The notes below the pieces were generated by a model. It saw nothing but the letters and a program-made list of their open reading frames with translations. It searched no databases and was not told the origin of the DNA. A stretch of 64,000 nt of DNA from Deroplatys truncata (lineage: Eukaryota > Arthropoda > Insecta > Mantodea > Mantidae), in assembly GCA_030765065.1 (NCBI GenBank), contig CM060979.1, positions 21,171,001-21,235,000 of the forward strand, in the 5' to 3' direction. The position numbers and the translations under genes are program-made. Position 1 is the first letter of the stretch; each line of letters starts with the position of its first letter. Shown piece after piece: positions 2,677 through 61,460 of the stretch.

Positions 2677-3104
2677 AGGAGGACACCCCGCGCGCTGCGA
2701 TTTACATAGATTCATTGTGGCTAACACCCCCAGGAAGAAGGGATGAAGTGAAGGAATCACAGGAAGCTACAGGCCACAGTCGCGCGGAAGACCCCAACAG
2801 TTCCAGGCTCGAAAACGCGTTCCACTGCTGGAGTGCCTAGAGGGCGATGAACGACCCGTCGACCAAGCAGCCCTGTATGACCAAATGGGTCTTTTCCTTG
2901 AGCAAGCAATGAAGCCTAGAAGTAAACCTGAAAGATAAGGAAACGGGATGAATGGGAAATGATAGAAAGGAAGTTATGAGAATCCACCCTAGCATTCGCA
3001 TATCGACCAGGGAAAAACCCAAGGTCAGAGTGGTCGGTCGACAGGAATCGAACCCGAAACCTCTGAATACGTCTCACATGTTACCGCGGAGCCATTTCCC
3101 TTTG
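2677..3104 (-). mobile_element. SINE2 (tRNA-derived SINE)
   Basis: This is a reverse-oriented copy of a SINE family also at 36390, 40090 and 58122. The tRNA-like head lies at the right end (GGCTCCGCGGTAACATGTGA, then a B-box-like GGTTTCGGGTTCGATTCC on the minus strand). The body contains AAGGGATGAAGTGAAGGAA and the CGCGCTGCG end shared with the 40090 copy. The family matches by block order although bases differ. Confidence 0.7.
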
Positions 3105-4090
3105 TTTCAAACAAGTAAACTCTTTGGATTCTGAGATAATCTCTTATTTTCTGTGAGTATACTGATTCTTACAAAGTGGATTTTACAAAATTGTTCAGAA
3201 GTGTTAATATATTTTAAAATGAAAATTTTAGAAACAGTTTGAAAGTAGAAACATGTTGATAATACAAAATCAAGTCTTGTTGGACCATAAACAAACTTCA
3301 TCATCAGACACATGAATATCACTGTGAACTGCCAGCAAAGCACGTATGTGCTTTTTAAGCATGTTTTTACTGTCTTAGAGTAGAAAAAGGTTATTTCTGC
3401 AGAAACGGTGGAAGCTGTTAATACCTTGAAAACAACACAGGGAACCAAAGAAGTCACATCTTTGAACCTTTCCATGTTGTCATATTGTCTTAAAAAAATT
3501 CCCATTGAAAGAATAAAGATTTCCTATCTAAAGAAGTACTTCATCTGGGACTGAGTTTAGCTAAAATGTTTGCGATGGTCCTTTCTTATCAAATCACTTT
3601 CATTACTGCTGTACAAGAAATAAAAAGTTTCAAGGGATTCACGGCCTCACCCTCCCAAACCAAATACGCCCCTTGCCTCGCAGTTCTTTCCTTAACCAAT
3701 TCGATTTAATGTCTGTTCCCTTTGTCGTATTTGCTGTGTGATAGGTGTAGACGTAAGCATGTGTTTTTAGCTCATCACGTGTTTTCGCCTTTCGACGAGG
3801 TATAATATATACATATTGCAGCAGGCAACTGTTATTGTTATCAGTCAATTTCCTTAACAGATGAGCGACGACCCTGACATTGCTTGCCAGAGTTCCATGA
3901 TTAGCCTTATCTGTTTGTGTTTTTTCCTTCTGCCATATACATGGCAAGGGCAAACATTTTGCAGTGGCGGATAAAACTGATCATGTCAAAAATGAAACAC
4001 GTACATTGAGTAAGACGAGATTATCCTTCCTGCTTTCTATGCCCGGTTTACTGCCATAGCGAGCAGATCCGGCCAGCGGACTATTCGCTT
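3105..4090. other. Unassigned stretch with two unidentified open frames
   Basis: Two minus-strand frames of 132 codons (3107-3505) and 104 codons (3639-3953) lie here. Neither shows a domain I recognise, and codon content looks like translated AT-rich noncoding DNA. No splice context was evident. I see no support for calling either a gene. Confidence 0.35.
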
Positions 4091-5645
4091 TTTACCTTCT
4101 GAACTGCGTACTTACAGTAACTACAGAGTGAGCCAAAAAACTACGAACCGCCTGCGCGGTGTTTTTCCTGTCCGCATTCTCGGTGCTTGTTGCCGTCTGC
4201 TGCTATCATAGAAAGGTGCGGCTGAAACCATACATCATTTTTAAAGGCTTTACTTACCAACTTTATGAAAGGAGATGCTGAAACTGTCCACCGTCGTTGT
4301 CCATACGTTTTTGGCACCTCTTTAGGAAACTATCCATCATGGAATTTTTGGGGGGAATTTTCCAAACGATGACCGATGTCGTCTAATGTTTCGTCGGTAA
4401 GAACCGAACGCTGTGTTTTAGATTTCTTAGCCTGAACACTTCCTGTGGCCTGAAATTTACTATAAAGTCCATGGATTGTTGTACGGCGTGGAACTTTTAC
4501 ACCTAGAAATCTTTCTGCAAATCGTACTTTCACTTGACGAGCTGACCGAGTTAACACATACGAATCATAAATAAATACACGTTGTGCAGTAGAAAGCATA
4601 TACTGAGACATAATATACTTTGTGACTAAGTACAGGACAAAATAATAAATAACTCGTAATAACTGAACCACATCACATCACCGTCAACTCAAAACTGCAC
4701 TTCACACTGCACAGCAAAGTCACAACAGCGTGACTTTGTTTATAGCAGCAGTGCGTTATCATGTTTTATCATATTTCCACACGCCCAGTGGAAAAACACC
4801 GCGCAGTCGGTAATATTGTTCATAAAATAGCCCTCCGTGGTAACTTAAAACATAAAGTGTACAAGACAAATCCACACACCCTGGCAGAATTAAAACAAAA
4901 TATCCGCCAGGAAATTTCTCTACGTGAACTACGACGAGTGATGGGTAGTTTCCTAAAGAGGTCCCAAAATGTATGGACAACGACGGTGGCCAGTTTCAGC
5001 ATCTCCTTTTGTAAAGTTGGTAAGTAAAGCCTTTAAAAGTAGTTTTAAAAACGTTGTATGGTTTCATCCGGGCCTTTCTATGATAGCAGCAGACGGCAAC
5101 GAGCGCCGAGGACGCGGACAAGAAAAATACCGCGCAGGCGGTTCGGAGTTTTTTGGCTCACTCTGTAGAAGAGGTACTGTATTTCACCCAAAGGTTCGAT
5201 ATAGATATTTCAATACATACATGTTTTGAACCCCTCTGAATCCAAAAAAGCGCACGCACGTGTGTGTCTGTGAACAGCATTAGCAAAACGAAGACGCGAA
5301 TAAATACCAAACTCAGGACATAAGTTCAGTATTTACAAGAAAATTCCCCCATCCCAAACTACTCTTTACATGGAAAAATGTTTGATATTTTTTTATTTTC
5401 TCAAACATGCGTAACGATTTCGATTAAAATACCACATATTGAAGATATTTGCTTGACATAAAAATTTTATAGCTTAAATTTTCTGGATATAGCCTATGAA
5501 GTCTTCTTCATTCGGAAGGGATTTTGTGATATGAGTTTATTTCAAATAACTTTTTGTGGTGTCGGTAATTTCCAAGATATCCGTTGATATTGGTTTGAAT
5601 TTTTCATTTCTTTTGCCATTTGCTTAAAGTCCTGAGCTATTTGGC
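4091..5645 (+). mobile_element. Old H9 copy split by the TcA element
   Basis: The 5' start of an old H9 is at 4091-4121 (a TTTACCTTCTGAACTGCGTA-like start). The body resumes at 5168 with GAAGAGGTACTGTATTTCACC and runs to about 5645. The intervening 4122-5167 is a TcA transposon bounded by a TA dinucleotide. Rejoining the flanks across one TA restores the normal H9 order, so H9 is the older of the two. The 3' terminus is not clear. Confidence 0.7.
4122..5167. mobile_element. TcA: Tc1/mariner-superfamily element, inverted-duplicate (foldback) form
   Basis: A non-autonomous element flanked by TA, with ends ACAGAGTGAGCCAAAAAACT and the inverse. Terminal arms are unusually long (about 210 bp) and each includes DNA coding for the end of the transposase. 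On the minus strand, 4330-4671 encodes an N-terminal helix-turn-helix region of the DUF4817 type (RVFIYDSYVLTRSARQVKVR). It is fused by deletion to the 3' arm. On the plus strand, about 4838-5027 encodes the C-terminal part (AELKQNIRQEI, then ELRRVM). At about 4790-4813 there is a piece of a native end (AACACCGCGCAG) where the two halves meet. The catalytic core is missing, so it cannot make active transposase. It is nested in an old H9. Confidence 0.8.
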
Positions 5646-7237: not shown

Positions 7238-8289
7238 ACTTTCTCTACTACGTATAGTAAGCAGGGGAAGTATTGTATTCCACCCAAAAATTCGATACCG
7301 CGATTTCACCGGAAATACATGTTTTGAGACCCCCTGAATCATCCAAAAAAAGCATTTTTGGAAACATGTCCGTGTGTGTGTTTGTCTCTGAACAGCATAA
7401 CTCAGAAACGAATAGTCGGATAAACACCAAACTTGGTATTTAGGTTCAGTATCTTTCAAGGATGCGACACGAAGGTTTTCAAGAACCCCCCCACCCCAGA
7501 GTACCCTTTACATGGAAGATTTTTCGAAAATTTTAATTTTCTCAAAAATGGCTCTAACGATTTTGATTAAAATATCATATGTTTAAGATATTTTTATGAC
7601 AAATAAAATGTATATCTTGAATTTCCTGGGAATGTCTCCAAAAGTATTCTTTATTGTGAACGACTTTTGTATAACTCGTAAACCATAAGAGATAGACAAA
7701 ATTTTACTACACAAAAAATGTAGATCGCGTTAAAATACGCAATTTATGTCATATACATTTTTTTTGTTGAGTGAACCATTTTCGAGATATTACTTGTTAT
7801 TCCCTTAAATTTTTCAATACTTATTTTCTCAAATGAGAATTCGTTATTCATTTTTTTGTCTTGGATATGCAAGGAGTATTAATCTGTGGCAAAGGGAATG
7901 GTGCTGCAGCTAGCAACCAGGTATTAAGAGATATGTATGTGGTTAAAGGCTACTGTATTTCTATATTGCCTTTGTAAATATATATTCCCCTTACATCTAC
8001 TAGAAAATTAGGAATAAGATAAGAGTCTGCAAATGTTTATCTCGATTAACATGAAGTAGATGGAGAATAAGCGTTTGTATAAATAGTTTGTACAGGAGTA
8101 GAGAAAGTCATGTGAGTGTAACACAGATGTTTTATGTCTTGGACATGCAAAGAGAATGGAATGCGCCACATAGTAACCAGCTCTTAAAACATTTGACTAT
8201 CGCTTAAAGCCTACCAATTCCCCTTGCATCTACAAGAGAATAAGCGTTTGTAAACAGTAGAGAATGTCATGTGAGTGTAACACATCAGA
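7238..8289 (+). mobile_element. H9 copy with doubled 3' end (sub-type a body plus b tail)
   Basis: The start ACTTTCTCTACTACGTATAG is at 7238. A sub-type a body runs to a first terminal hairpin (ATGTGAGTGTAACACA) ending near 8127. A second, partial unit follows directly. It starts in the TCTTGGACATGCAAAGAGAA block, has the sub-type b sequence (GCGCCACATAGTAACCAGC, then TTTGACTATCGCTTA), and ends with its own hairpin and ATCAGA at 8289. So the copy has one 5' end and two 3' ends in tandem. The flanks are T-rich. Confidence 0.85.
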
Positions 8290-10138: not shown

Positions 10139-10340
10139 ATTTTTTTAAGATTGTAACTATCACTTTAGCTCATTGTATTCTTGTTATACCTAGAACGAAA
10201 CGTATAATAAAGTTTATCTTGGTTGCCAAGAAGTTCTTGCATAGAAGAATAAGCTTTTGGAAAATATAGTTTGTAGACGAGTGAGTAGAGGAAGTCATGG
10301 GAATGTTCCATGTCAGATTTTTTATTTTCTCTAAGCAGTC
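10139..10340 (+). mobile_element. Extra H9 3' tail and a following H9 5' end fragment
   Basis: After the end at 10138 a second distal block appears (TAGAACGAAACGTATAATAA, then GAGTAGAGGAAGTCATGGG), with a terminus ATGTCAGA at 10317 and a T-run. It is followed by ATTTTCTCTAAGCAG, which resembles another H9 start that soon becomes unrecognisable. This may be the tail of one of the copies whose 5' ends lie upstream. Confidence 0.55.
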
Positions 10341-11743: not shown

Positions 11744-12637
11744 TCTGATGTGTTACACTCACATGACTTTCTCTACTCTTGTACAATCTATTTTTACAAA
11801 CGCCTATTCTCCATATGCTTCATGTTAATCGAGATATCGAGATGTCAATCTTATTGGTAATTTTCTTGTAGATGCAAGGGGAATATGGTAGGTTATAAGC
11901 GATAGTCAAATATTTTAACGCTGGTTGCTATGTGGCGCATTTCATTCTCTTTGCATGTCCAGGGCATAAAAAAAATGAATAACGAATTTGAGAAAAAGTA
12001 CAAGTATTGAAATATTTAAGGAAATAACAAGCAATATCTCGAAAACGGTTCACTCAACAAAAGAAATGTATATGACATAAGTTCTGTATTTTAACGCGAT
12101 CTACATTTTTTGTGTAGTAAAATTCTGTCTATCTCTTACGGTTTACCAGTTATGCAAAAGTCGTTCACAATGAAGAATACTTTTGGAGACATTCCCAGAA
12201 AATTCGAGATATACATTTCATTTCCCATGACATTATCTTAAACATATGATATTTTCATCAAAATCGTTAGAGCCATTTTTGAGAAAATTAAAATTTTCGA
12301 AAAATGTTCCATGTAAAGGGTAGTCTGGGGTGGGGGGATTTTCTTGAAAACCTTCGTGTCGCATCTCTGGAAGATACTGAACCTAAATACCAAGTTTGGT
12401 GTTTATCCGACTGTTCGTTTTTGAGTTATGCTGTTCACAGACACACACACACACACACACAGACACACACACACACACACACAGACACACACACAGACAC
12501 ACACACGGACATGTTTCCAAAAATGCTTTTTTTGGATTCAGTGGGTCTCAAAACATATATTTCCGGTGAAATCTCGGTATCGAATTTTTGGGTGGAATGC
12601 AATACTTCCCCTACTTACTATACGTAGTAGAGAAAGT
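11744..12637 (-). mobile_element. H9 sub-type b inserted in TcA; defines both ends
   Basis: This copy fixes the H9 termini. The TcA sequence TTTTAAAAATGTTG, known intact at 17400-17420, is here split after A5. H9 starts TCTGATGTG (the inverse of its 3' end) at 11744 and ends GAGAAAGT at 12637, with A5 again beside it. The target is therefore a T/A run. Either five bases are duplicated or a short T-run belongs to the element. Length is 894 bp. It contains the (CA)n block and the GCGCCACATAGCAACCAGC-type sub-type b segment. Confidence 0.9.
12437..12507 (+). repeat. (CA)n microsatellite inside H9
   Basis: This is a (CA)n run with GACA interruptions, at the place in H9 where shorter copies have a few CA units, between TGCTGTTCACAG and GGACATGTTTCC. 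Long His-Thr frames on both sides are by-products of this run. Confidence 0.95.
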
Positions 12638-15579: not shown

Positions 15580-15846
15580 TACAGGGAAAGCCCAAAAACA
15601 ACAAACCGCCAGCGCGTTGTTTTTCCTGCCCGCGTCCTCGGCGCTCGTTGCCGTCTGCCTCTATCATACAAAGGCGCGGATGAAACCATGCAACATTTTT
15701 AAAACTACTTTTAAAGACTTTACTTATCAACTTTATGAAAGAAGCTACTGAAACTGGCCACCGTCGTTGTCCGTACATTTTTGGCACCTGTTTAGGAAAC
15801 TATCCATCACTCGCCAATTTTTTTCGAGTCAACAATTTAAGCCCGT

Positions 15847-16985: not shown

Positions 16986-17821
16986 GAATACAATTTTGTC
17001 CCCCCCCTTTTTTAGAGAATTAACAGCCAGAGAGCGTGATTTTGCCTTTTTTCAACAAGACTCTGCAACAGCTTATACGCCCAATATTTCGACGAGAAAA
17101 ATTGAAAGTGTGTTTGAGGACAGAATTATTAGTACAGATTTCTGGCCCCCTCGGTCCCCCCCCGACCTAACCCCCTGTGATTTCTATCTCTGGGGTAACT
17201 TAAAACAAAGTGTACAAGACAAGCCCACACACTCTGAAAGAATTAAAATAAAATATCAGCCAGGAAATTGCCAGCATTTCTCAATGTGAACTACGGCGAA
17301 TGATGGATAGTTTCCTAAAGAGGTGCCAAAAAGTATGGACAACTACGGTGACCAGTTTCAGCATCTCCTTTCATAAAGTTGGTAAGTAAAGCCTTTACAA
17401 GTAGTTTTAAAAATGTTGTATGGTTTCATCCGCGCCTTTCTGTGATAGCGGTAGACGGCAGCGAGCGCTGAGGACGCGGACAAGAAAAACACCGCGCAGC
17501 CAGTTCATAGTTTTTTGGCCCACTCTGTATTTAGCACAATTCAGTCATGGTTGAGGAGTTTAGTTTTTATTTACTCTTGTATTTTGGATCTATAGGTACT
17601 TAAAAGTGCTTATTGGTCCTTTATTTGTTCAGTATGCGCTGTTCAGTAATTCAATTGATATCCTTTCTCTAAAAGTGAGGACGGAGTGAAGGTGTGATTG
17701 CCTTCGTCTCTCTGTCATTTCTGTTTCAGCATCCCTGCCCCAAATGCACTTTCCAGGCACGCCCCTGCTCAGCTGCAATTTGCTAGGTATTGCTTCCTGC
17801 ATTGCCTTCTTTCATTTGCAG

Positions 17822-20983: not shown

Positions 20984-21627
20984 TCTGATATGTTACACTC
21001 ACATGACTTTCTCTACTCTCGTACAAACTATTTTTACAAACGCTTATTCTCCATATGCTTCATGTTAATCGAGATATCGAGATGTCAATCTTATTGCTAA
21101 TTTTCTTGTAGATGCAAGGGGAATTGGTAGGCTTTAAGCGATAGTCAAATATTTTAAGAGCTGGTTGCTATGTGGAGTATTCCATTCTCTTTGCATGTCC
21201 AGGACATAAAAAATAAATGAATAACGAATTTGAGAAAAAGTATAAGTATTGGAAAATTTAAGGGAATAACAAACAGTATCTCGGAAATGGTTCACTCAAC
21301 AAAAAAAATGTATATGACATAAATTGTTTATTTTAACGCGATCTACATTTTTTGTGACGTAAAATGTTGTCTATCTCTTATGGTTTACCAGTTATGTAAA
21401 AGTCGTTCACAATGAAGAATACTTTTGAAGAACATGATATTTTAATCAAAATCGTTAGAGCCGTTTTTGAGAAAATTAAAATTTTCGAAAAATATGCATG
21501 TAAAGGGTAACCTGGGGTGGGGTGATTTTCTTGACAACCTTCGTGTCGCATTTCTGGAAGATACTGAACCTAAATACCAAGTTTGGTGTTTATCCGACTC
21601 TTCGTTTCTGAGTTATGCTGTTCACAG

Positions 21628-21658
<31 letters not shown>

Positions 21659-21784
21659 CATGTTTCCAAAAATTTTTTTTTGATTCAGGGGACATCAAAA
21701 CGTGGATTTCCAGTGAAATCTTGGTATCGAATTTTTGGGTGGAATACAATACTTCCCCTGCTTACTATACGTAGTAGAGAAAGT
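20984..21784 (-). mobile_element. H9 sub-type b, about 100 bp shorter
   Basis: The termini are clear: TCTGATATGTTACACTCACA at 20984 and GTAGTAGAGAAAGT at 21784, each beside an A-run. An internal deletion near 21430 removes the GACATTCCCAGAAAATTCGA part. It carries a (CA)n block at 21629-21656. Confidence 0.9.
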
Positions 21785-22503: not shown

Positions 22504-23276
22504 AACTATTTCACTCATGTATCGATTGACCGTTCCCAGATAAGTCCTACAAATTCGATCAGTCACAGTTGTCTATCTCAATTATTTTATCTTTTTAATT
22601 TTATAGGATTCCTTATCGCTTGAACGTGCAATTTTATTTTTTCCTTAAGAGTCGCCAACTATTTTATCCGGTAAACAATTTTAATTTCCACTGTCGGGGG
22701 AAATCTAAATGCCGGACTGGGTATTTATAACTAATTTTTTTTGTGATTACCAGTATTTTTATAAACGTACTACATGTATATACTAATTAATTGGTTTTTA
22801 TCATTTTTAGTGAAATACCCCAAAATAAATGCAGCCCGGGTTCCAAATTCTCTCACGTTAAATTCTAGAGCTCTCGTCATACTACTTTAGATGAATATTC
22901 CTCAGAAATGGTTTCTGTGTTACAGGCACGCAGACATATAGAGAAGGCTGGGATGTGTTGCTAAAATGCAAATGGAATGTGCGAGCCTCATATCGCATAT
23001 TTGTATGAACTGACAAGAAACAAAAAGGTCTAAAGTCTACTGCTTAAAATGGTAAATAATACGAAATATCTCTGAAACAATTAATGCTTCATAAAAGCCT
23101 AAAACTATATTTTAATGCATTCTATATTTCTTTTACAGTAAGTTTTTATGCACCTTGCAAGGCTCATACATACATTTCTACGAAGACCTCAAAGGCTTTT
23201 CATAGAAAATTCAAGTTACCCAGACATTTTATTTGCCATTACATTAACATATAACAGATTAAAAAATCTGATGTGT
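22504..23276. other. Unassigned AT-rich stretch
   Basis: A faint resemblance to old H9 near 23050-23145 (AAATATCTCTGAAACAATTA) is too weak to call. Confidence 0.35.
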
Positions 23277-24099
23277 TACACTCACATGACTTTCTCTACT
23301 CTTGTACAAACTATTTTTACAAACGCTTATTCTCCATATGCTTCATGTTAATCGAGATGTTAATCTTATTGCTAATTTTCTTGTAGATGCAAGGGGAATT
23401 GCTAGGCTTTAAGCGATAGTCAAATCTTTTAAGAGCTGGTTGCTATGTGGAGTATTCCATTCTCTTTGCATTACCAGGACAAAAAAATGAATAACGAATT
23501 TAAGAAAAAGTATAAGTATTGGAAAATTTAAGGGAATAACAAGCAATATATCGAAAATGGTTCACTCAACAAAAAAATGTATATGAAATAAATTGTGGCG
23601 ATCTACATTTTTTGTGTAGTAAAACTTTGTCTATCTCTTATGGTTTACCAGTTATGCGAAAGTCGTTCACAATGAAGAATACTTTTGGAGACATTCCCAG
23701 AAAATTCGAGATATACATTTCATTTGTCATGAAAATATCTTAAACATATGATATTTTAATCAAAATCGTTAGAGCCATTTTTGAGAAAATTAAACTTTTC
23801 GAAAAATCTTCCATGTAAAGGGTAATCTGGGGTGGGGGGATTTTCTTGAAAACCTTCATGTCGCATCTCTGGAAGATACTGAACCTAAATACCAAGTTTG
23901 GTGTTTATCCGACTGTTCGTTTCTGAGTTATGCTGTTCACAGATAGACACACACAGACACACACACACGGACATGTTTCCAAAAATGCTTTTTTTGGATT
24001 CAGGGAGTCTCAAAAGATATATTTCCGGTGAAATCTCGGTATCGAATTTTTGGGTGGAATACAATACTTCCCCTACTTACTATACGTAGTAGAGAAAGT
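23277..24099 (-). mobile_element. H9 sub-type b
   Basis: From TCTGATGTGTTACACTCACA to GTAGTAGAGAAAGT, flanked by A-runs. The (CA)n block is at 23945-23967. It lacks a short piece near 23590 and is otherwise close to the copy at 11744. Confidence 0.9.
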
Positions 24100-25998: not shown

Positions 25999-26908
25999 AC
26001 TTTCTCTACTACGCATAGTAAGTAAGGGAAGCATTGTATTCCACCCAAAAATTCGATACCAAGATTTCACCGGAAATACATGTTTTGAGACCCCCTGAAT
26101 AAAAAAAACCATTTTTGGAAACATTATCGTGCGTGTGTTTGTGTGCCTGTGAAGAACATAACTCAGAAACGAACAGTCGGATAAACACCAAATTTGGTAT
26201 TTAGGTTCAGTATCTTCCAGAGATGCGACACGAATATTTTCAAGAAAATCCTCCACCCCAGATTACCCTTTACATGGAACATTTTTCGAAAATTTTAATT
26301 TTCTCAAAAATGGCTCTTAACGCTTTTGATTAAAATATCATATATTTAAGATATTTTCAAGACAAATGAAATGTATATCTCGAATTTTCTGGGAATGTCT
26401 CCAAAAGTATTGTTCATTGTGAACGACATTTGCATAACTGGTAAACCATAAGAGATACACAAACTTTTACTACACAAAAAATGTAGATCGCGTTAAAATA
26501 CACAATTTATGTCATATACATTTTTATTTGTAGAGTGAACCTTTTTCGAGATATTGCTTGTTATTCCCTTAAATTTTTCAATACTTATTTCCTCAAATGG
26601 GAAATCGTTATTCATTTTTTGTCTTGGATATGCAAAGAGTATTAATATGTGGCAAAGAGAATGGTGCTGCACATAGCAAGCATCTATTAAGAGATATGTC
26701 TATGCTTAAAGGCTACTGTATTTCTATATTTCCTTGCAACTACAAAACAAGGGGAACATAGTAGGCCTTAAGCGATAGTCAAATATTTGACTATAGCTTA
26801 AAGCTTACCAATTCCCTTTGCATCTACAAGAAAATTAGCAATAAGATTAACATGAAGCATATGGAGAATAAGCGTTTGTAAAAATAGTTTTACAAGAGTA
26901 GAGAAAGT
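25999..26908 (+). mobile_element. H9 sub-type c lacking the terminal hairpin
   Basis: It starts ACTTTCTCTACTACGCATAG after a T-run and ends exactly at the internal 12-mer (AGTAGAGAAAGT at 26897-26908), followed by AAAAGGCTAGATG. The usual 22-bp hairpin end is missing. A palindrome at 26749-26819, centred on AAATATTT, joins an inverted and a direct sub-type b segment. Confidence 0.85.
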
Positions 26909-28858: not shown

Positions 28859-29737
28859 TACGAGGGCTGATCAACAAAGACAGACTGATTTTTCCTGTAG
28901 CTTCCGTGATAGTTTCGTATCTGTAACATAAATATTTGAAAAGAGCAGGTTTTTATGTATAATGTTGGTAGGCGGCAGCACTCTCGTATTGGTAGGTTGG
29001 TAGTAATGCTCTATTTTGTAGACCCTACGTGCATTTCGCATACCAACAATGCAGGTGATGCATTTTTTAAATCGATAATCACCGGTGATGAGTCATGGCC
29101 GCATCATTATGATCTTGAAGGAAAACAAGCCAGCACAGTGTGGAAATCGCCAGCTTCTCCAACACCAAAAAAGGCAAAAGTTGTTCCATCTGTAGGGAAA
29201 GTGATGGTGATCACATTTTTTGACTGTAATGGAATGATTTACCAGCATGCAGTTCCCCCTCACACTACTGTTACAGCAGCATACTACACGTCAGTATTGG
29301 CTACACTGAGGAAGCACATTGCAAAGAAACAACCAGAGCTTTCTCGGACTGGGTGGCGACTTCATGACAATGCAAGGCCTCACGTCGCAAATCAAGTCAT
29401 GCAGTTTCTGGCTCGATTCAACATTACCTGTGTACCGCATCCACCTTTTAGCCCCGATCTTGCACCCTGTGACTTTTTTTTATTCCCATCACTAAAGGCA
29501 AAGCTTAGGGGTATTCGATTTGAGAACTCTGAAGCAGTGCTCAAGAAAAGTGAGGCGATTCTAAAGGACCTGACAAAGAATGGTCTGCAGCACATGTTCA
29601 AGGAATGGCAGAGACGCTATAAAAAGTGCATTGAAGTAGGAGGGGACTACTTTGAAAAAGATCATGTAAATGTTGAATTGGAGTAATAAACATCTGTGAA
29701 AAAAATCACTCTCAGTCTTTGTTGATCAGCCCTCGTA
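28859..29737 (+). mobile_element. Mariner element, internally deleted, intact ends
   Basis: TA-flanked element of 879 bp. The terminal inverted repeats agree perfectly over the first 23 bases (TACGAGGGCTGATCAACAAA and onward, 28859-28881 and 29715-29737). A full mariner is about 1.3 kb, so about 0.4 kb of the 5' coding part is gone. It sits within the R5 repeat. Confidence 0.9.
28955..29686 (+). CDS. Mariner transposase, catalytic domain only (N-terminal HTH deleted)
   Basis: An uninterrupted 243-codon frame. After a short non-homologous start it reads as a mariner (DD34D) catalytic domain: ITGDESWPHHYDLEGKQAS with the first Asp, GKVMVITFFDCNGMIYQHAV, LHDNARPHVANQVMQFLAR with the second Asp, and PFSPDLAPCDFFLFPSLKAK with the third Asp 34 residues on. 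The end KKCIEVGGDYFEKDHVNVE is the usual mariner C-terminus, and a stop precedes AATAAA at 29685-29691. The two N-terminal DNA-binding helix-turn-helix motifs (about 100 residues) are missing, lost in the internal deletion. The Met used is simply the first in frame. It should not bind its own ends as it stands, though the catalytic residues are all present. Confidence 0.85.
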   Translation: MYNVGRRQHSRIGRLVVMLYFVDPTCISHTNNAGDAFFKSIITGDESWPHHYDLEGKQASTVWKSPASPTPKKAKVVPSVGKVMVITFFDCNGMIYQHAVPPHTTVTAAYYTSVLATLRKHIAKKQPELSRTGWRLHDNARPHVANQVMQFLARFNITCVPHPPFSPDLAPCDFFLFPSLKAKLRGIRFENSEAVLKKSEAILKDLTKNGLQHMFKEWQRRYKKCIEVGGDYFEKDHVNVELE

Positions 29738-31813: not shown

Positions 31814-32761
31814 ACTTTCTCTACTACGTATAGTAAGTAGGGGAAGTATTGTATTCCACCCAAAAATTCGATACCGAGATTTCACCGGAAATATATGTTT
31901 TGAGACCCCCTGAATCCAAAAAAAAAGCATTTTTGGAAACATGTCCGTCTGTGTGTCTGTCTGTGAACAGCATAACTCAGAAACGAACAGTCGGATAAAC
32001 ACCAAACTTGGTATTTAGGTTCAGTATCTTCCAGAGATGCGACACCAAGGTTTTCAAGAAAATCCCCCCACCCCAGATTACCCTTTACATGGAACATTTG
32101 TCGAAAATTTTAATTTTCTCAAAAATGGCTTACGATTTTGATTAAAATATCATATGTTTAAGATATTTTCATGACAAATGAAATGTATATCTCGAATTTT
32201 CTGGGAAGTCTCCAAAAGTATTCTTCATTGTGAACGACTTTTGCATAACTGGTAAACCATAAGAGATACACAAAATTTGACTACATAAAAAATGTAGATC
32301 GCGTTAAAATACACAATTTATGTCATATACATTTTTATTTGTAGAGTGAACTTTTTTCGAGATATTGCTTGTTATTCCCTTAAATTTTTCAATACTTATT
32401 TCCTCAAATGGGAATTCGTTATTCATTTTTTGTCTTGGATATGCAAAGAGTATTAATCTGTGGCAAAGAGAATGGTGCTGCACCTAGCAACCAGCTATTA
32501 AGAGATATGTATATTCTTAAAGGCTACTGTATTTCTATATTGCCCTTGCCATTACAAAACAAGGGGAACATAGTACGCCTTAAGCGATAGTCAAATATTT
32601 TTAGAACTGGTCGCTATGTGTAAAATGTAATTCTCTTTGCATGTCAAAAGATCGTTTATGCAAATGTTTATCTCGATTAATATTAGATAGATGGAGAATA
32701 AGAGTTTGTAAAAATAATTTGTACAAGAGTAGAGAAAGTCATGTGAGTGTAACGCATCAGA
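31814..32761 (+). mobile_element. H9 sub-type c with internal long hairpin
   Basis: Complete copy of 948 bp: start ACTTTCTCTACTACGTATAG, end AGTAGAGAAAGTCATGTGAG then AACGCATCAGA and a T-run. The a-type segment (32441-32547, starting ATGCAAAGAGTATTAATC) is followed after about 12 bases by an inverted b-type segment (32560-32642, ending TTCTCTTTGCAT). The two can pair as an imperfect hairpin with arms near 85-105 bases. Confidence 0.9.
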
Positions 32762-38788: not shown

Positions 38789-39255
38789 TACAGAGAGAGC
38801 CAAAAAAACTACGAACCGGCTGCGCGGTGTTTTACCTGTCCGCGTCCTCGGCGCTCGTTGCCGTCTGCCGCTATCATAGAAAGGCGCGGATGAAACCATA
38901 CAACATTTTTAAAACTACTTTTAGAGGCTTTACTTACCAACTTTATGAAAGGAGATGCTGAAATTGGCCACCGTCATTGTCCACACACTTTTGGCATCAA
39001 TTTTTTTCTCATCGTGAACTACGGCGAGTGATGGATAGTTTCCTAAAGAGGTGCCAAAATGTATGGACAACGACGGTGGCCAGTTTCAGCATTTCCTTTC
39101 ATAAAGTTGGTAAGTAAAGCCTTAAAAGTAGTTTTAAAATATTGTATGGTTTTATCCGCGCCTTTCTATGATAGTGGCAGACGGCAACGAGCGCCGATGA
39201 CGCGGACGGGAAAAGCACCGCGCAGCTGGTTCGTAGTTTTTTGGCTCTCCCTGTA
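38789..39255. mobile_element. TcA foldback MITE (467 bp, arms about 208 bp)
   Basis: TA-flanked. The left arm 38789-38996 and right arm about 39050-39255 are near-perfect inverse copies. Outer ends read CAGAGAGAGCCAAAAAAACT, and the inner edges meet at TTTTGGCA and TGCCAAAA. The 53-bp centre still holds AACTACGGCGAGTGATGG from the transposase 3' coding region. This is the simplest form of the family: two inverted copies of the 3' end and nothing else. Confidence 0.9.
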
Positions 39256-51940: not shown

Positions 51941-52222
51941 TGTCGTCCTCCGTGGTGTAGTGGTTACCATGCTAGCCTCTAGTTCCAGAGGTCGCGGGTT
52001 CAAACCCGGCGGAGGGCGATGCATTTTTTCGGGCGTAAACATCCTTAGCATGGTTTCCTTCGGAAGGGAAGTAAAGTCGGTGGTCCCGTGTCGTAGATTT
52101 ACGACACGTAAAAGAACATCAAGCCTGATAAAGAGGCCTCTGAGCAAAATTACCAGTCTTCCACGGCCAATATAGAATGGGACGCCCACAGCAGTTAAAG
52201 AGCGTCCATAAATAAAACTCAA
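51941..52222 (+). mobile_element. SINE1, best-preserved copy
   Basis: Head TCGTCCTCCGTGGTGTAGTG, A box TGGTGTAGTGGT, B box GGGTTCAAACCC. The acceptor-like pairing CCTCCG/CGGAGG is intact; the tail is AATAAAACTCAATTT. CAAACATG on both sides (51935-51942 and 52242-52249) is a possible duplication with spacing from the tail that leaves a T/A-rich end. Confidence 0.9.
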
Positions 52223-53868: not shown

Positions 53869-54817
53869 TCTTATGTGTTACACTCACATGACTTTCTGTA
53901 CTCTTGTACAAACTATTTTTACAAACTCTTATTCTCCTTCTATTTCATATTAATCGAGATAAATATTTGCGTAAACGATCTTTTGACATGCAAAGAGAAT
54001 TGCATTTTACACATAGCGACCAGTTCTAAAAATATTTAACCATCGCTTAAGGCCTACTATGTTCCCCTTGTTTTGTGTTTGCAAGGGCAATATAAGCACA
54101 GACATATCTCTTAATAGCTGGTTGCTATGTGCAACACCATTCTGTTTGCCACAGATTAATACTCTTTGCATATAAAAGACAAAAAAATGAATAACGAATT
54201 CCCATTTGAGAAAATAAGTATTGAAAAATTTAAGGGAATAACAAGCAATATCTCGAAAATGGTTTACTCAAAAAAAAAGTATATGACAAATTGTGTATTT
54301 TAACGCGATCTACATTTTTTGTGTAGTAAAATTTTGTCTATCTCTTATGGTTTATCAGTTATGCAAAAAGTCGTTCACAATGAAGAATACTTTGGGAGAC
54401 ATTCTCAGAAAATTAAGATATACATTTTATTTGTCATGAAAATATCTTAAACATCTGATATTTTAATCAAAATCGTTAGAGCCATTTTTGAGAAAATTAA
54501 AATTTTCGAAAAATGTTCCACGTAAAGGGTAATCTGGGGTGGGGGGATTTTCATGAAAACCTTCGTGTCGCATCTCTGGAAGATACTGAACCTAAATACC
54601 AGGTTTGGTGTTTATCCGACTGTTCGTTTCTGAGTTATGCTGTTCACAGACACATACACACTCGCACAGACACACACGCGGACATGTTTCTAAAAATGCT
54701 TTTTTTTTTGGATTCAGGGGGTCTCAAAACATATATTTCCAGTGAAATCTCTGTATCGAATTTTTGGATGGAATACAATACTTCCCCTGCTTACTTACTA
54801 TACGTAGTAGAGAAAGT
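53869..54817 (-). mobile_element. H9 sub-type c in a LINE
   Basis: 949 bp from TCTTATGTGTTACACTCACA to GTAGTAGAGAAAGT, between A-runs of the LINE. Closing the gap restores the LINE frame around SKLEK and NIVIKEEMK, so the insertion site is within an A-run. It carries the same a-segment plus inverted b-segment as the copy at 31814. Confidence 0.9.
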
Positions 54818-56035: not shown

Positions 56036-57775
56036 TACATTGACATGACTTACTCTACCCTCTATCGTTTAATGGTGAGTATACAAATTATTCTTACTCA
56101 AGTTTATTTTTCTATCTACTACATTTTCATCCAATTAAACCTTTACAGAAATAGCTACATTACACATTTCGTTATAGATACAAAGAGAAATGTGATAGTC
56201 AAATGTTAAGAACTGGACGCTATATGCTGGCCTTAAAATTCCACATTGTTTCCATGACATCGCGAGAAACAACTGAATGTTAAAGGGACTTTAAGAGAAT
56301 GACCAAGAAATGAACAATTCGAATCTTTAATAACGGATGTCTCAGAAACAGCTTATACCATAAAAAAACTAATTTGAAATAAATTGTGTGTTTTAAAGAG
56401 AGCTACATTTTATGTAGTACGTTTTCGTCTGTCGCTTCACGTTTATCAGTTATATAAGATTATCAAAATTCCTTCCGAATGAAGAGGGCTTCATAGGCTA
56501 TTCTTCGAAAATTCAAGGTAAACATTTTATTTGTCATGTAAATATCTTTCATGTATGGTATTTTAATGAAAATCGTTAGCGCCATTTTTTAGAAAATAAA
56601 ACATTTCGAAAAATGTTCCACGTAAAGGGCAGTTTGGAGTGGGGGGATTTTGTTGCAAATCTTCGTATCGCATCTTTGGTAGTTATTGGACCTAAATACC
56701 AGTTTCGTATTTATCAAACGTTTTGTTTTTGAGTTATGGTGTTCAATGATAGACACACAAATAGACATGTTTCAAAAAATGCTTTATTTGAATTCCTAAA
56801 TTCCTATTACTTTCTCTACTACGTATAGTAAATAGGGGAAGTATTGTATTCCACCCAAAAATTCGATACCGAGATTTCATCGGAAATACATGTTTTGAGA
56901 TCCCCTGAATCCAAAAAAAAGCATTTTTGGAAACATGTCCGTTTGTGTGTGTGTGTGTGTGTGTGTGTCTGTGAACAGCATAACTCAGAAATGAACAGTC
57001 GGATAAACACCAAACTTGGTATTTAGGTTCAGTATCTTCCAAGGATACGACACGAAGGTTTTCAAGAAAATTCCCCCACCCCAGATTACCCTTTACATAG
57101 ACGAGTTTTCGAAAATTCTAATTTTCTCAAAAATGGCTCTAACGATTTTGATTAAAATATCATATGTTTAAGATATTTGTATGACAAATAAAATGTATAT
57201 CTTGAATTTCCTGGGAATGTCTCCAAAAGTATTCTTCATTGTGAACGACTTTTGCATAACTGGTAAACCATAAGAGATAGACAAAATTTTACTACACAAA
57301 AAATGTAGATTGCGTTAAAATACATAATTTATGTCATATACATTTTTTTGTTGAATGAACCATTTTCGAGATATTACTTGTTATTCCCTTAAATTTTTCA
57401 ATACTTATTTTCTCAAATGGGAATTCGTTATTCATTTTTTTGTCTTGGATATGCAAAGAGTATTAATCTGTGGGAAAGGGAATGGTGCTGCACCTAGCAA
57501 CCAGCTATTAAGAGATATGTATGTGCTTAAAGGCTACTGTATTTCCAAATTGCCCTTGTAAATATATATTCCCCTTACATCTACAAGAAAATTAGCAATA
57601 AGATAGAGTCTGCAAATGTTTATCTCGATTAACATGAAGTAGATGGAGAATAAGCGTTTGTAAAAATAGTTTGTACAAGAGTAGAGAAAGTCATGTGAGT
57701 GTAACACATCAGATTTTTTTGTGTGGAATGCAATATCTTTTCTACCTACTATGTGCATTGGGTTGCAATGTGCAC
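56033..57775 (-). mobile_element. Old H9 carrying a young H9 near its 5' end
   Basis: The minus-strand H9 starts with its 3' end (TTGACATGACTTACTCTACC) and runs to TTTATTTGAATTCC at 56802. It resumes beyond the young copy at 57718 with GTGTGGAATGCAATATCTTT and a degenerate 5' end near 57775. It is of the older sub-type (CGTTATAGATACAAAGAGAA). Confidence 0.75.
56809..57713 (+). mobile_element. H9 sub-type a, complete reference copy
   Basis: 905 bp. Parts in order: 5' 12-mer ACTTTCTCTACT at the very start; TTCCACCCAAAAATTCGATA; CATTTTTGGAAACATGTCCG; (GT)n at 56943-56969; CTGTGAACAGCATAACTCAG; CACCCCAGATTACCCTTTAC; ACGATTTTGATTAAAATATC; GAACGACTTTTGCATAACTG; GAACCATTTTCGAGATATTA; TGCACCTAGCAACCAGCTAT; CTGCAAATGTTTATCTCGAT. 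Then comes the inverted 12-mer AGTAGAGAAAGT (57680-57691), the hairpin ATGTG-AGTGTAA-CACAT, and ATCAGA at 57713. A T-run follows. No protein domain is encoded; a ~95-codon antisense frame recurs in several copies. Confidence 0.92.
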
Positions 57776-59759: not shown

Positions 59760-61460
59760 CTGTTATTTTGTTTTTGGGCATCTTCCTTATCGGCATACGA
59801 TTATCTCTGTTGCTTTATCAGCTATTTCATTTCCGAATGCACCAGCATCTGCTTTTATCCATTTAAAATGAATTTGCCCAGTGCTGACTAAAGAGGATTT
59901 TAATTGTTTGCCCAATATGGATCCATGTTTGTTGTTATTTTTCAATAAGTCGTGAATACAACCACTGTCGTTCCATAGTTTGCAAGTATTTCGTTTCACT
60001 TTGTCCTTAGAGCTTGTAGGATTGCCACCTGCTTGACTGCTTGATTATTGGAACAATTATTATCTAACTTAAATAAAATTGTTGTTGGGCTACCTCTTGT
60101 TCCTAAATATGACTACTGCTGATCCTATTTTTACTTTCTCTACTACGTATAGTAAGTAGGGTAAGTATTGTATTCCACCCAAAAATTCGATACCGAGATT
60201 TCACCGGAAATATATATTTTGAGACCCCCTGAATCAAAACAAAAAGCATTTTTGGAAACATGTCCGTGTGTGTCTGTCTGAACAGCATAACTCAGAAACG
60301 AACAGTCGGATAAACACCAAACTTGGTATTTAGGTTCAGTATCTTCCAGAGATGCGACACGAAGGTTTTCAAGAAAATGCCCCCACCCCAGATTACCCTT
60401 TACATGGAACATTTTTCGAAAATTTTAATTTTCTCAAAAATGGCTCTAACGATTTTGATTAAAATATCATTTGTTTAAGATATTTTCATGACAAATAAAA
60501 TGTATATCTTGAATTTTCTGGGAATGTCTCCAAAAGTATTCTTCATTGTGAACGACTTTTGCATAACTGGTAAACCATAAGAGAGAGACAAAATTTTACT
60601 ACACAAAAAATGTAGATCGCGTTAAAATACACAGTTTGTCATATACATTTTTTTTTGTTGAGTGAACCATTTTCGAGATATTGCTTGTTATTCCCTTAAA
60701 TTTTTCAATATTTTCTCAAATGGGAATTCGTTATTCATTTTTTTGTCTTGGATATGCAAAGAATATTAATCTGTGGGAAAGGGAATGGTGCTGCACCTAG
60801 CAACCAGCTATTAAGAGATATGTATGTGCTTAAAGGCTACTGTATTTCTATATTGCCCTTGTAGATATATATTCCCCTTACATCTACAAGAAAATTAGCA
60901 ATAAGGTAGAGTCTGCAAATGTTTATGTCGATTAACATGAAGTAGATGGGAGAATAAGCGTTTGTAAAAATAGTTTTACAAGAGTAGAGAAAGTCATGTG
61001 AGTGTAACACATCAGATTTTTTCCATTTATTTTGCTGCCGTCTGTGAACACTTCTATTTTGTATTGGTCATTACTGGTTACACATATTTCTAGCATCTCT
61101 GCAGGATACATCCATTGCGTTTTATCAATTGGTGCATAATACTCTAGAGGTTCCCGTAGTAATCTCTGTATTACATTATATTATATGTTTATCTTCTCTT
61201 CTACTACACTGTTATTTGGTTCGACTCCGGCCAATGCATCAATTCATTGGATTTCTGTAAGCTTTTGTGTTTTAATATTCATCAATCTTTGAACTCTGAT
61301 ATTTCCTTTCATAGATGTGTTCTGTATGCAGTACGAAGGGATTTGCCAGCTTGTTCTAAAGGGGCAAGGGTTTCGATTGGGATTTTCCAATGGTTTATCG
61401 GCTGTAGGCAGTTTCATAACGGAGGTTCAGGTACAGAATGATATAACGTTATCTAATCTC
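59760..61460 (-). mobile_element. LINE remnant: RT-tail to RNase H region, carrying H9
   Basis: Minus-strand LINE ORF2 fragment. From right to left: RLMNIKTQKLTEI and ALAGVEPNNSVVEEKI (linker after RT, two frames), RLLREPLEYYAPIDKTQWMY, then the RNase H start IEVFTDGSKING (catalytic Asp in TDGSK). After the H9 come KIGSAVVIFRNK, a piece with QAVKQVAILQAL in another frame, and HFKWIKADAGAFGNEIADKA (59787-59999), the RNase H C-terminal His/Asp block. RNase H is found in the I, R1, LOA and related clades. Several stops and shifts are present. Confidence 0.8.
60133..61016 (+). mobile_element. H9 sub-type a in the RNase H frame of a LINE
   Basis: 884 bp, start ACTTTCTCTACTACGTATAG, end ATCAGA. 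The LINE codons GGA-AAA-ATA (Gly-Lys-Ile) are opened at their A-run: five T before and six after H9 replace an original five. This gives an independent exact map of the H9 ends, in agreement with the TcA case at 11744. Confidence 0.92.

Follow-up and report, generated by a model that had tools for sequence, protein, structure and literature searches.

The closest described systems are DINE-1/INE-1 of Drosophila and the HINEs, together with the accompanying Helentrons, of Culex and the mite Metaseiulus; in the portions of the account drawn on here (Thomas et al. 2014, PMC4067079) these elements have, like the element that we call H9, inverse repeats near both ends. According to the same portions, they share with H9 a 3' palindrome, a microsatellite and insertion at T-T targets without modification of the target, as well as a partner that carries Rep, helicase and endonuclease together with a GS motif, and GS in Rep motif 2 is given there as a mark of Helentrons (PMC4067079). 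H9 lies within the window, by which we mean the whole 64,000-bp stretch of DNA that was analysed. On the evidence set out below we consider it very probable (roughly 0.95) that H9 is a HINE moved in trans by an endonuclease-bearing rolling-circle Helentron of the same genome.

The sequence-only reading had described asymmetric 12-mer repeats, a 3' hairpin with a 5-bp stem and a 7-base loop between the inner repeat and the terminus, and an internal microsatellite, and all of these were found (Table 1). ACTTTCTCTACT opens H9, and its 3' end runs from the inverse 12-mer, identical at 12/12 positions and 22 bp from the end of ATCAGA, through the hairpin (ATGTG-AGTGTAA-CACAT) and CAGA to seven T's; the microsatellite is a GT repeat. 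Allowing at most one mismatch, ACTTTCTCTACT had 27 matches in the window against 0.40 expected (100 shuffles; the largest number in any shuffle was 3). HINEs and Helentrons are recognised by inverse repeats of at least 11 bp that are identical within a family, and here the identity was 12/12 in H9 and 11/12 at the 3' end of its coding partner. The H9 family also has the palindrome near the 3' end that is expected of this group: the stem of H9 was exact in 40 of 44 termini of standard length, two others kept pairing through G-T and two broke one pair. This tally began with 47 termini from the window and the loci read, excluding L001 and L074-L078, from which three of odd length, one of them spurious, were dropped. 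No compensatory double change was seen among the 47 termini, so the hairpin is backed by conservation and not by covariation. In a diverged window copy that ends at 10317, the hairpin appears compensated.

Table 1. Features of H9 and of its family in the window (positions are those of the window).
Feature	Position	Strand	Remark
H9, probable non-autonomous Helentron-type element (HINE)	56809..57713	+	about five flanking T's are also part of the element
5' repeat ACTTTCTCTACT	56809..56820	+	
GT microsatellite, internal to H9	56944..56968	+	
T-run at element positions 627-633	57435..57441	+	common self-insertion site, unoccupied in H9
3' subterminal inverse repeat AGTAGAGAAAGT	57680..57691	+	
3' hairpin of H9	57693..57709	+	5-bp stem and 7-base loop
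T-run past the 3' end of H9	57714..57720	+	partly element, partly target
Family copy, near full length	7238..8125	+	
Family copy, full length	11744..12637	-	paralogous empty sites within the window
Family copy, full length	20984..21784	-	
Family copy, full length	23267..24099	-	
Family copy, near full length	25999..26908	+	without hairpin end
Family copy, full length	31814..32761	+	
Family copy, full length	53869..54817	-	
Family copy, full length	60133..61016	+	
Empty site paralogous to the target of copy 11744-12637	38866..38950	+	

With six family members as queries and the microsatellite masked, the H9 family accounted for 16,624 of the 64,000 bp of the window (26.0%) in 41 merged stretches, and the same masked queries gave no hits in the reversed window. 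The unmasked count was 38 strand-wise clusters, some of which were microsatellite only. The earlier estimate of about 30 copies in 64 kb was thus fair as a number, but only nine are near full length. The genome that was searched comprises 4.29 Gb in 818 contigs; in it the 40-base 5' end of H9 had 114,152 exact matches and the 36-base 3' end 104,569, with none for either reversed pattern, these counts being of exact matches, without diverged copies, and taking in tandem units and composite heads. The window holds four exact 40-mer 5' ends, compared with about 1.7 from the genome mean. It also contains a Mariner-type Transposase_1 fragment (28940-29686, open frame of 248 codons) and a weakly scoring tRNA-like sequence (51944-52019; anticodon CTA; ARAGORN; Rfam tRNA 30.7 bits), which is perhaps a pseudogene or a piece of a tRNA-derived repeat.

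Several larger arrangements of family sequence were seen elsewhere in the genome. Contig C1 has at its start a tandem array (L074, G000:C1:17000-26999) whose units of about 3,409 bp are 98.5% alike in L074, with one HINE copy, 81% identical to H9, in each full unit seen; at least 26 exact 3' ends are listed there (C1:20511-119361), spaced at about 3,409 bp or multiples of it. L075 and L076 (G000:C1:13832500-13845300) form a near-perfect palindrome of 11.8 kb, 99.6% identical to its own inverse, and L077 and L078 (G000:C1:26122800-26133800) form another with arms of 4.9 kb at 98%; both have 76-bp steps mid-way and agree in the set and order of their HINE fragments, and the left edge lies beyond the stretch read, so that the sizes cover the read part only. 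C1:8177193-8187715 and C1:22028068-22033263 are palindrome-like by junction spacing. At L011:1061-2214, HINE 3' tails form a short tandem array (period 224 bp, higher-order period 457 bp at 97%) that looks like a satellite in the making from HINE ends.

In the strict-pattern set, T was present at -1 and -2 in 55/55 5' ends, the modal left flank was five T's (29/55), and at least five T's followed 33 of the 37 3' ends. The copy at 11744-12637 sits in another repeat, where the empty site reads ACAACATTTTTAAAAC and the filled site has five T's on each side; among the seven rows aligned for this site, TTTTT stood at the junction in four, and four T's, a deletion and a poor match were found in one each. 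The dispersed repeat that hosts these empty sites has five copies in the window (5012-5167, 15580-15740, 17369-17529, 38789-38950 and 39097-39255). Where the L008 copy lies inside a relative, the filled site has five more T's than the empty one. At filled sites in the T-run at 627-633, which has seven T's in H9, five T's stood left of the insert and seven or eight right of it in L009, L011, L012 and L013, and six left and four right of it in L010. For L002, empty paralogues (ten fetched of 40 listed) read CATTTCTTATTTTTGAA in seven and CATTTCTTACTTTTGAA in three, and the filled site reads CATTTCTTATT and TTTCTTTTGAA; for five of six joined flanks, no empty site was found among 40 candidates scored, the list being filled by the L002 repeat. 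The sharpest empty site was one in which the host sequence CCAATACTTATACTTTTTC became CCAATACTTATT, element, TTTTACTTTTTC in both L091 and L097; L080 had a mixed host sequence.

The five letters added at insertion, the modal flank of five T's and the identical 5-mers on both sides in 11 of 15 paired copies would all suit a MITE-like H9 mobilised by a DDE transposase whose insertions duplicate a fixed 5-bp target, TTTTT. The identical pairs are, however, what pure T targets must give. A separate class is that of copies with CTTATT on the left, of which the first 20 listed of 3,205 were fetched; nine without a recognisable end were dropped, and in the 11 with a recovered 3' end the right flank was TTTTT in seven, TTTTA in three, ATTTT in one and TTATT in none. 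At the CCAATACTTATACTTTTTC hosts, which have no T-run, the letters added by insertion were T's that the host does not offer. With the other empty sites compared, these two results indicate that insertion duplicates no target stretch of 3 bp or longer, although a 2-bp TT duplication would look alike, and that it brings about five T's that belong to the element. A 5-bp target duplication, suggested by the five added letters, was rejected on the same two grounds. A fixed five-letter T 5' end was also considered and is disfavoured, as TTATT left flanks were scattered on a tree of 52 5' ends, which was poorly supported, and one TTATT was present in the empty host. The sequence-only reading had placed insertions always in T-runs: the sites are indeed T-rich, but not all are pure T-runs, and of the flanking T's about five are part of the element. 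It had also named a true target duplication with symmetric terminal repeats as a finding that would overturn it, and H9 has neither such a duplication (of 3 bp or more) nor such repeats. Since the ends are asymmetric, and the partner encodes Rep, helicase and endonuclease, movement by a DDE transposase appears highly improbable. Insertion into T-T without modification of the target, apart from the possible TT duplication, is what is expected of a HINE.

The same reading had noted that the window holds no Rep or helicase, which agrees with the searches made here (no tblastn hits with the 2,324-aa partner protein at E 0.01, and no blastn hits with the inner part of the partner element), and had proposed that the class would be settled by finding a longer element that shares these ends and encodes such a protein. 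Such elements were found in the same genome, and H9-type termini were present at both ends in eight of eight copies. One was read whole, on contig C9 (L048 and L049): it is 9,786 bp long, with H9 position 1 at L048:2254 and the 3' end at L049:2039, and its open frame, 2,324 aa in length, begins at L048:4130 and ends at L049:1101. The predicted protein has, in order, a tegument-like protease, DUF6570, an HUH Rep, a PIF1 helicase and a C-terminal endonuclease. Herpes_teg_N, DUF6570, Helitron_like_N, PIF1, Pif1 2B and UvrD_C_2 all scored above the Pfam cut-offs; the C-terminal match to Exo_endo_phos_2 (E 5.1e-6, 26.8 bits) lies 0.6 bits under its cut-off of 27.4, and we count the AP-type endonuclease fused to the helicase, a further character of Helentrons, as present on this slightly sub-threshold match. 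Motifs found in the protein were TQC and DPH (protease), GSPHEH, YIIKY, GSAGVGKS, and QN, GDFN and SDH, the last three of which we take to be endonuclease motifs. GSPHEH is the Helentron form of Rep motif 2, with GS in place of GL. The tegument-like (VTD) protease domain stands at the start of the protein (L048:4241-4820, translated) with Cys and Asp-x-His in place, and among PDB entries this region matched a herpesviral large tegument protein (E 0.0022) and the solved deubiquitinase 8adb (E 0.016); no relatives in viral contigs were confirmed.

A genome search with the Helitron_like_N profile gave at least 152 matches, with 150 of 291 candidates scored, and at least 18 Rep matches lie in open frames of 2,108-2,543 aa. 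An in-frame minisatellite of 63 bp (21 aa) lies inside the C9 open frame at element positions of about 2,789-3,712 (L048), and 11 of the 18 listed frames are 2,324 aa long or depart from that length by a multiple of 21 aa, matching the copy number of this minisatellite. Among the forward-strand loci of L018-L047, in which Rep motif 2 was judged, it read GSPHEH in L041, L044 and L045 and GLPHAH in L020, L024, L028 and L033. The latter four represent a second lineage in the genome, of canonical Helitron type, which has probably mostly decayed; its Rep matches have stops or short frames, except L020 (849 codons).

All eight autonomous copies, of which C9 was read whole and the seven others at their two ends only, carried the same 3' terminus and, attached to the coding part, a 5' end of H9 type. 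A 56-base pattern of the partner 3' end had 30 exact matches in the genome, and all 30 lay downstream of a same-strand Rep match, at 4,379-4,419 bp in 29 and at 5,647 bp in one. A partner with the same ends that encodes Rep and a PIF1-type helicase, as Helentron-associated elements should have, is therefore present. The possibility that H9 belongs to canonical Helitrons, or to Helitron2 without endonuclease, deserves attention on account of the GLPHAH-type Rep matches in the same genome, but the 30/30 linkages tie H9 ends to the GSPHEH group, and the partner has the C-terminal endonuclease match. Canonical Helitrons bear TC at the 5' end and CTRR at the 3' end. H9 lacks both, having AC at its 5' end, CAGA followed by T's at its 3' end and a T-rich target, whereas canonical insertion is between A and T (PMC5148889, in the part consulted). 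Insertion of Helitron2 between TTTT and T or C, as given in the same part of that source (PMC5148889), does resemble that of H9. Taken together, we judge the Helitron assignment to be very unlikely.

The C9 element is 90% identical to H9 over positions 1-755 and 94% identical over the last 33 bp (873-905), whereas no blastn alignment of H9 756-872 to the autonomous copies read was obtained. On these alignments H9 is not accounted for by simple deletion from any of the autonomous copies read, and since only the last 33 bp align at the 3' end, the two would seem to belong to the same family and not to the same subfamily; a closer subfamily may exist or may have died out. The last 1.1 kb of the eight autonomous copies was 99.2-99.8% identical, which points to a recent spread, and the partner stands to the exact HINE ends (more than 100,000) at roughly one to 3,500. 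The putative autonomous engine is thus recent, and vastly outnumbered by its dependants.

The family also inserts into itself. Several loci read as H9 positions 1-631, then 1-905, then 632-905, that is, as a copy inside a copy. Exact patterns of unequal strictness counted 18,563 left and 18,919 right self-insertion junctions genome-wide, and these are pattern counts and not independent events, because composites are copied too. An excess of left over right junctions was considered as a mark of polarity and dropped, since genome-wide the two were about equal and no excess was seen. Among the first 100 listed of each kind, a right junction lay within 4 kb of the left in 37/94 and a left within 4 kb of the right in 35/100. 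An extra H9-type head directly preceded the main 5' end in seven of the eight autonomous copies (in L054 only head positions 378-630 lie inside the stretch), and C10 had a single head. The junction letters were identical in six of the seven two-headed copies. The corresponding 37-base head junction had 30 exact matches in the genome, and for at least 15 of these a listed Rep match followed at 4.6-5.1 kb, in a comparison made with 37 Rep places and, for the rest of the Rep matches, by eye. The repetition of one junction near Rep shows that the head is inherited with the element.

H9-type T-runs are frequent insertion sites, and heads and tails of H9 type enclose several Helentron copies, so it might be argued that the Helentron is merely nested in H9-type copies, with different ends of its own, and that the shared ends are accidental. 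In all eight copies, however, the 5' end that is continuous with the coding part and the terminus that follows are both H9-type, and in the C10 copy there is a single head, a tail is missing and the junction flanks show no family matches; such accidental sharing seems to us scarcely credible. Among the seven two-headed copies, a host tail followed the 3' end in C5, C8 and C1 at 33 Mb, and the DNA after the 3' end of C9, C1 at 248 Mb, C13 and C4 was unlike the other half of the host. A head without a tail is expected if transfer sets out from the outer 5' end and finishes at the first 3' end; we take the pattern to point to a rolling-circle route, not to prove it.

If H9 is moved by the Helentron, the HUH Rep would nick one strand at the 5' end and the PIF1-type helicase would peel off the nicked strand, until transfer would stop at the subterminal repeat and hairpin. 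A single-stranded or circular intermediate would then join a T-rich site without duplicating the target, bringing about five T's. As the element itself holds a T-run, copies would insert into copies, and a two-headed composite would be mobilised whenever transfer began at the outer 5' end and went no further than the first 3' end. It is a tentative, and in our view rather doubtful, extension of this scheme that a still active animal Helentron lineage owes its success to self-insertion, with the T-run at 627-633 serving new copies for docking and nesting shedding two-headed composites, and that one such composite turned into the main autonomous engine behind the more than 100,000 HINEs.

The coding partner settles the class of a very abundant repeat. 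The near-identical copies with long frames beside more than 100,000 dependants form a natural source for tests of Helentron transposition, for which a brief literature search, at the level of titles and the starts of abstracts, found no assay. The nested copies amount to natural experiments that bear on the start and stop points of transfer.

In comparison with known systems, canonical Helitrons such as Helraiser, reportedly a reconstructed Helitron, resemble the partner, as far as the source material consulted goes, in the HUH Rep, PIF1-type helicase and 3' hairpin, and differ from it in their ends, target and Rep motif and in the endonuclease that the partner carries. The distance from the 3' repeat to the end is 22-27 bp in the H9 family, as against 38-60 bp in mite HINEs in the portions used of PMC4067079, and relative to the HINE/Helentron set of those portions H9 also differs in that only 755 bp at the 5' end and 33 bp at the 3' end are common with the partner read, and in its more than 100,000 exact ends. 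FoHeli of Fusarium oxysporum, in the part consulted of PMC5148889, has several 5' termini and one 3' terminus, as do the two-headed copies here, and its composites are ascribed there to self-insertion and to transfer that begins at the outer 5' end and ends at the first 3' end. In FoHeli the repeated 5' part is typically shorter than 200 bp and that part of the source found no endonuclease (PMC5148889), whereas here 630 bp are repeated at 30 places, at least 15 of them linked to Rep. VTD domains in Helentrons have already been published: in the part consulted of PMC9741609 a tegument-like deubiquitinase lies in the Rep-helicase-endonuclease protein, to which the Cys and Asp-x-His of the predicted protein here would correspond, and, in contrast to the elements of that part, the scan of the 2,324-aa protein reported no OTU domain. 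The HINE/Helentron kind is known; what is uncommon here is the scale, the clarity with which self-nesting is recorded and the presence of recent copies that have long open frames.
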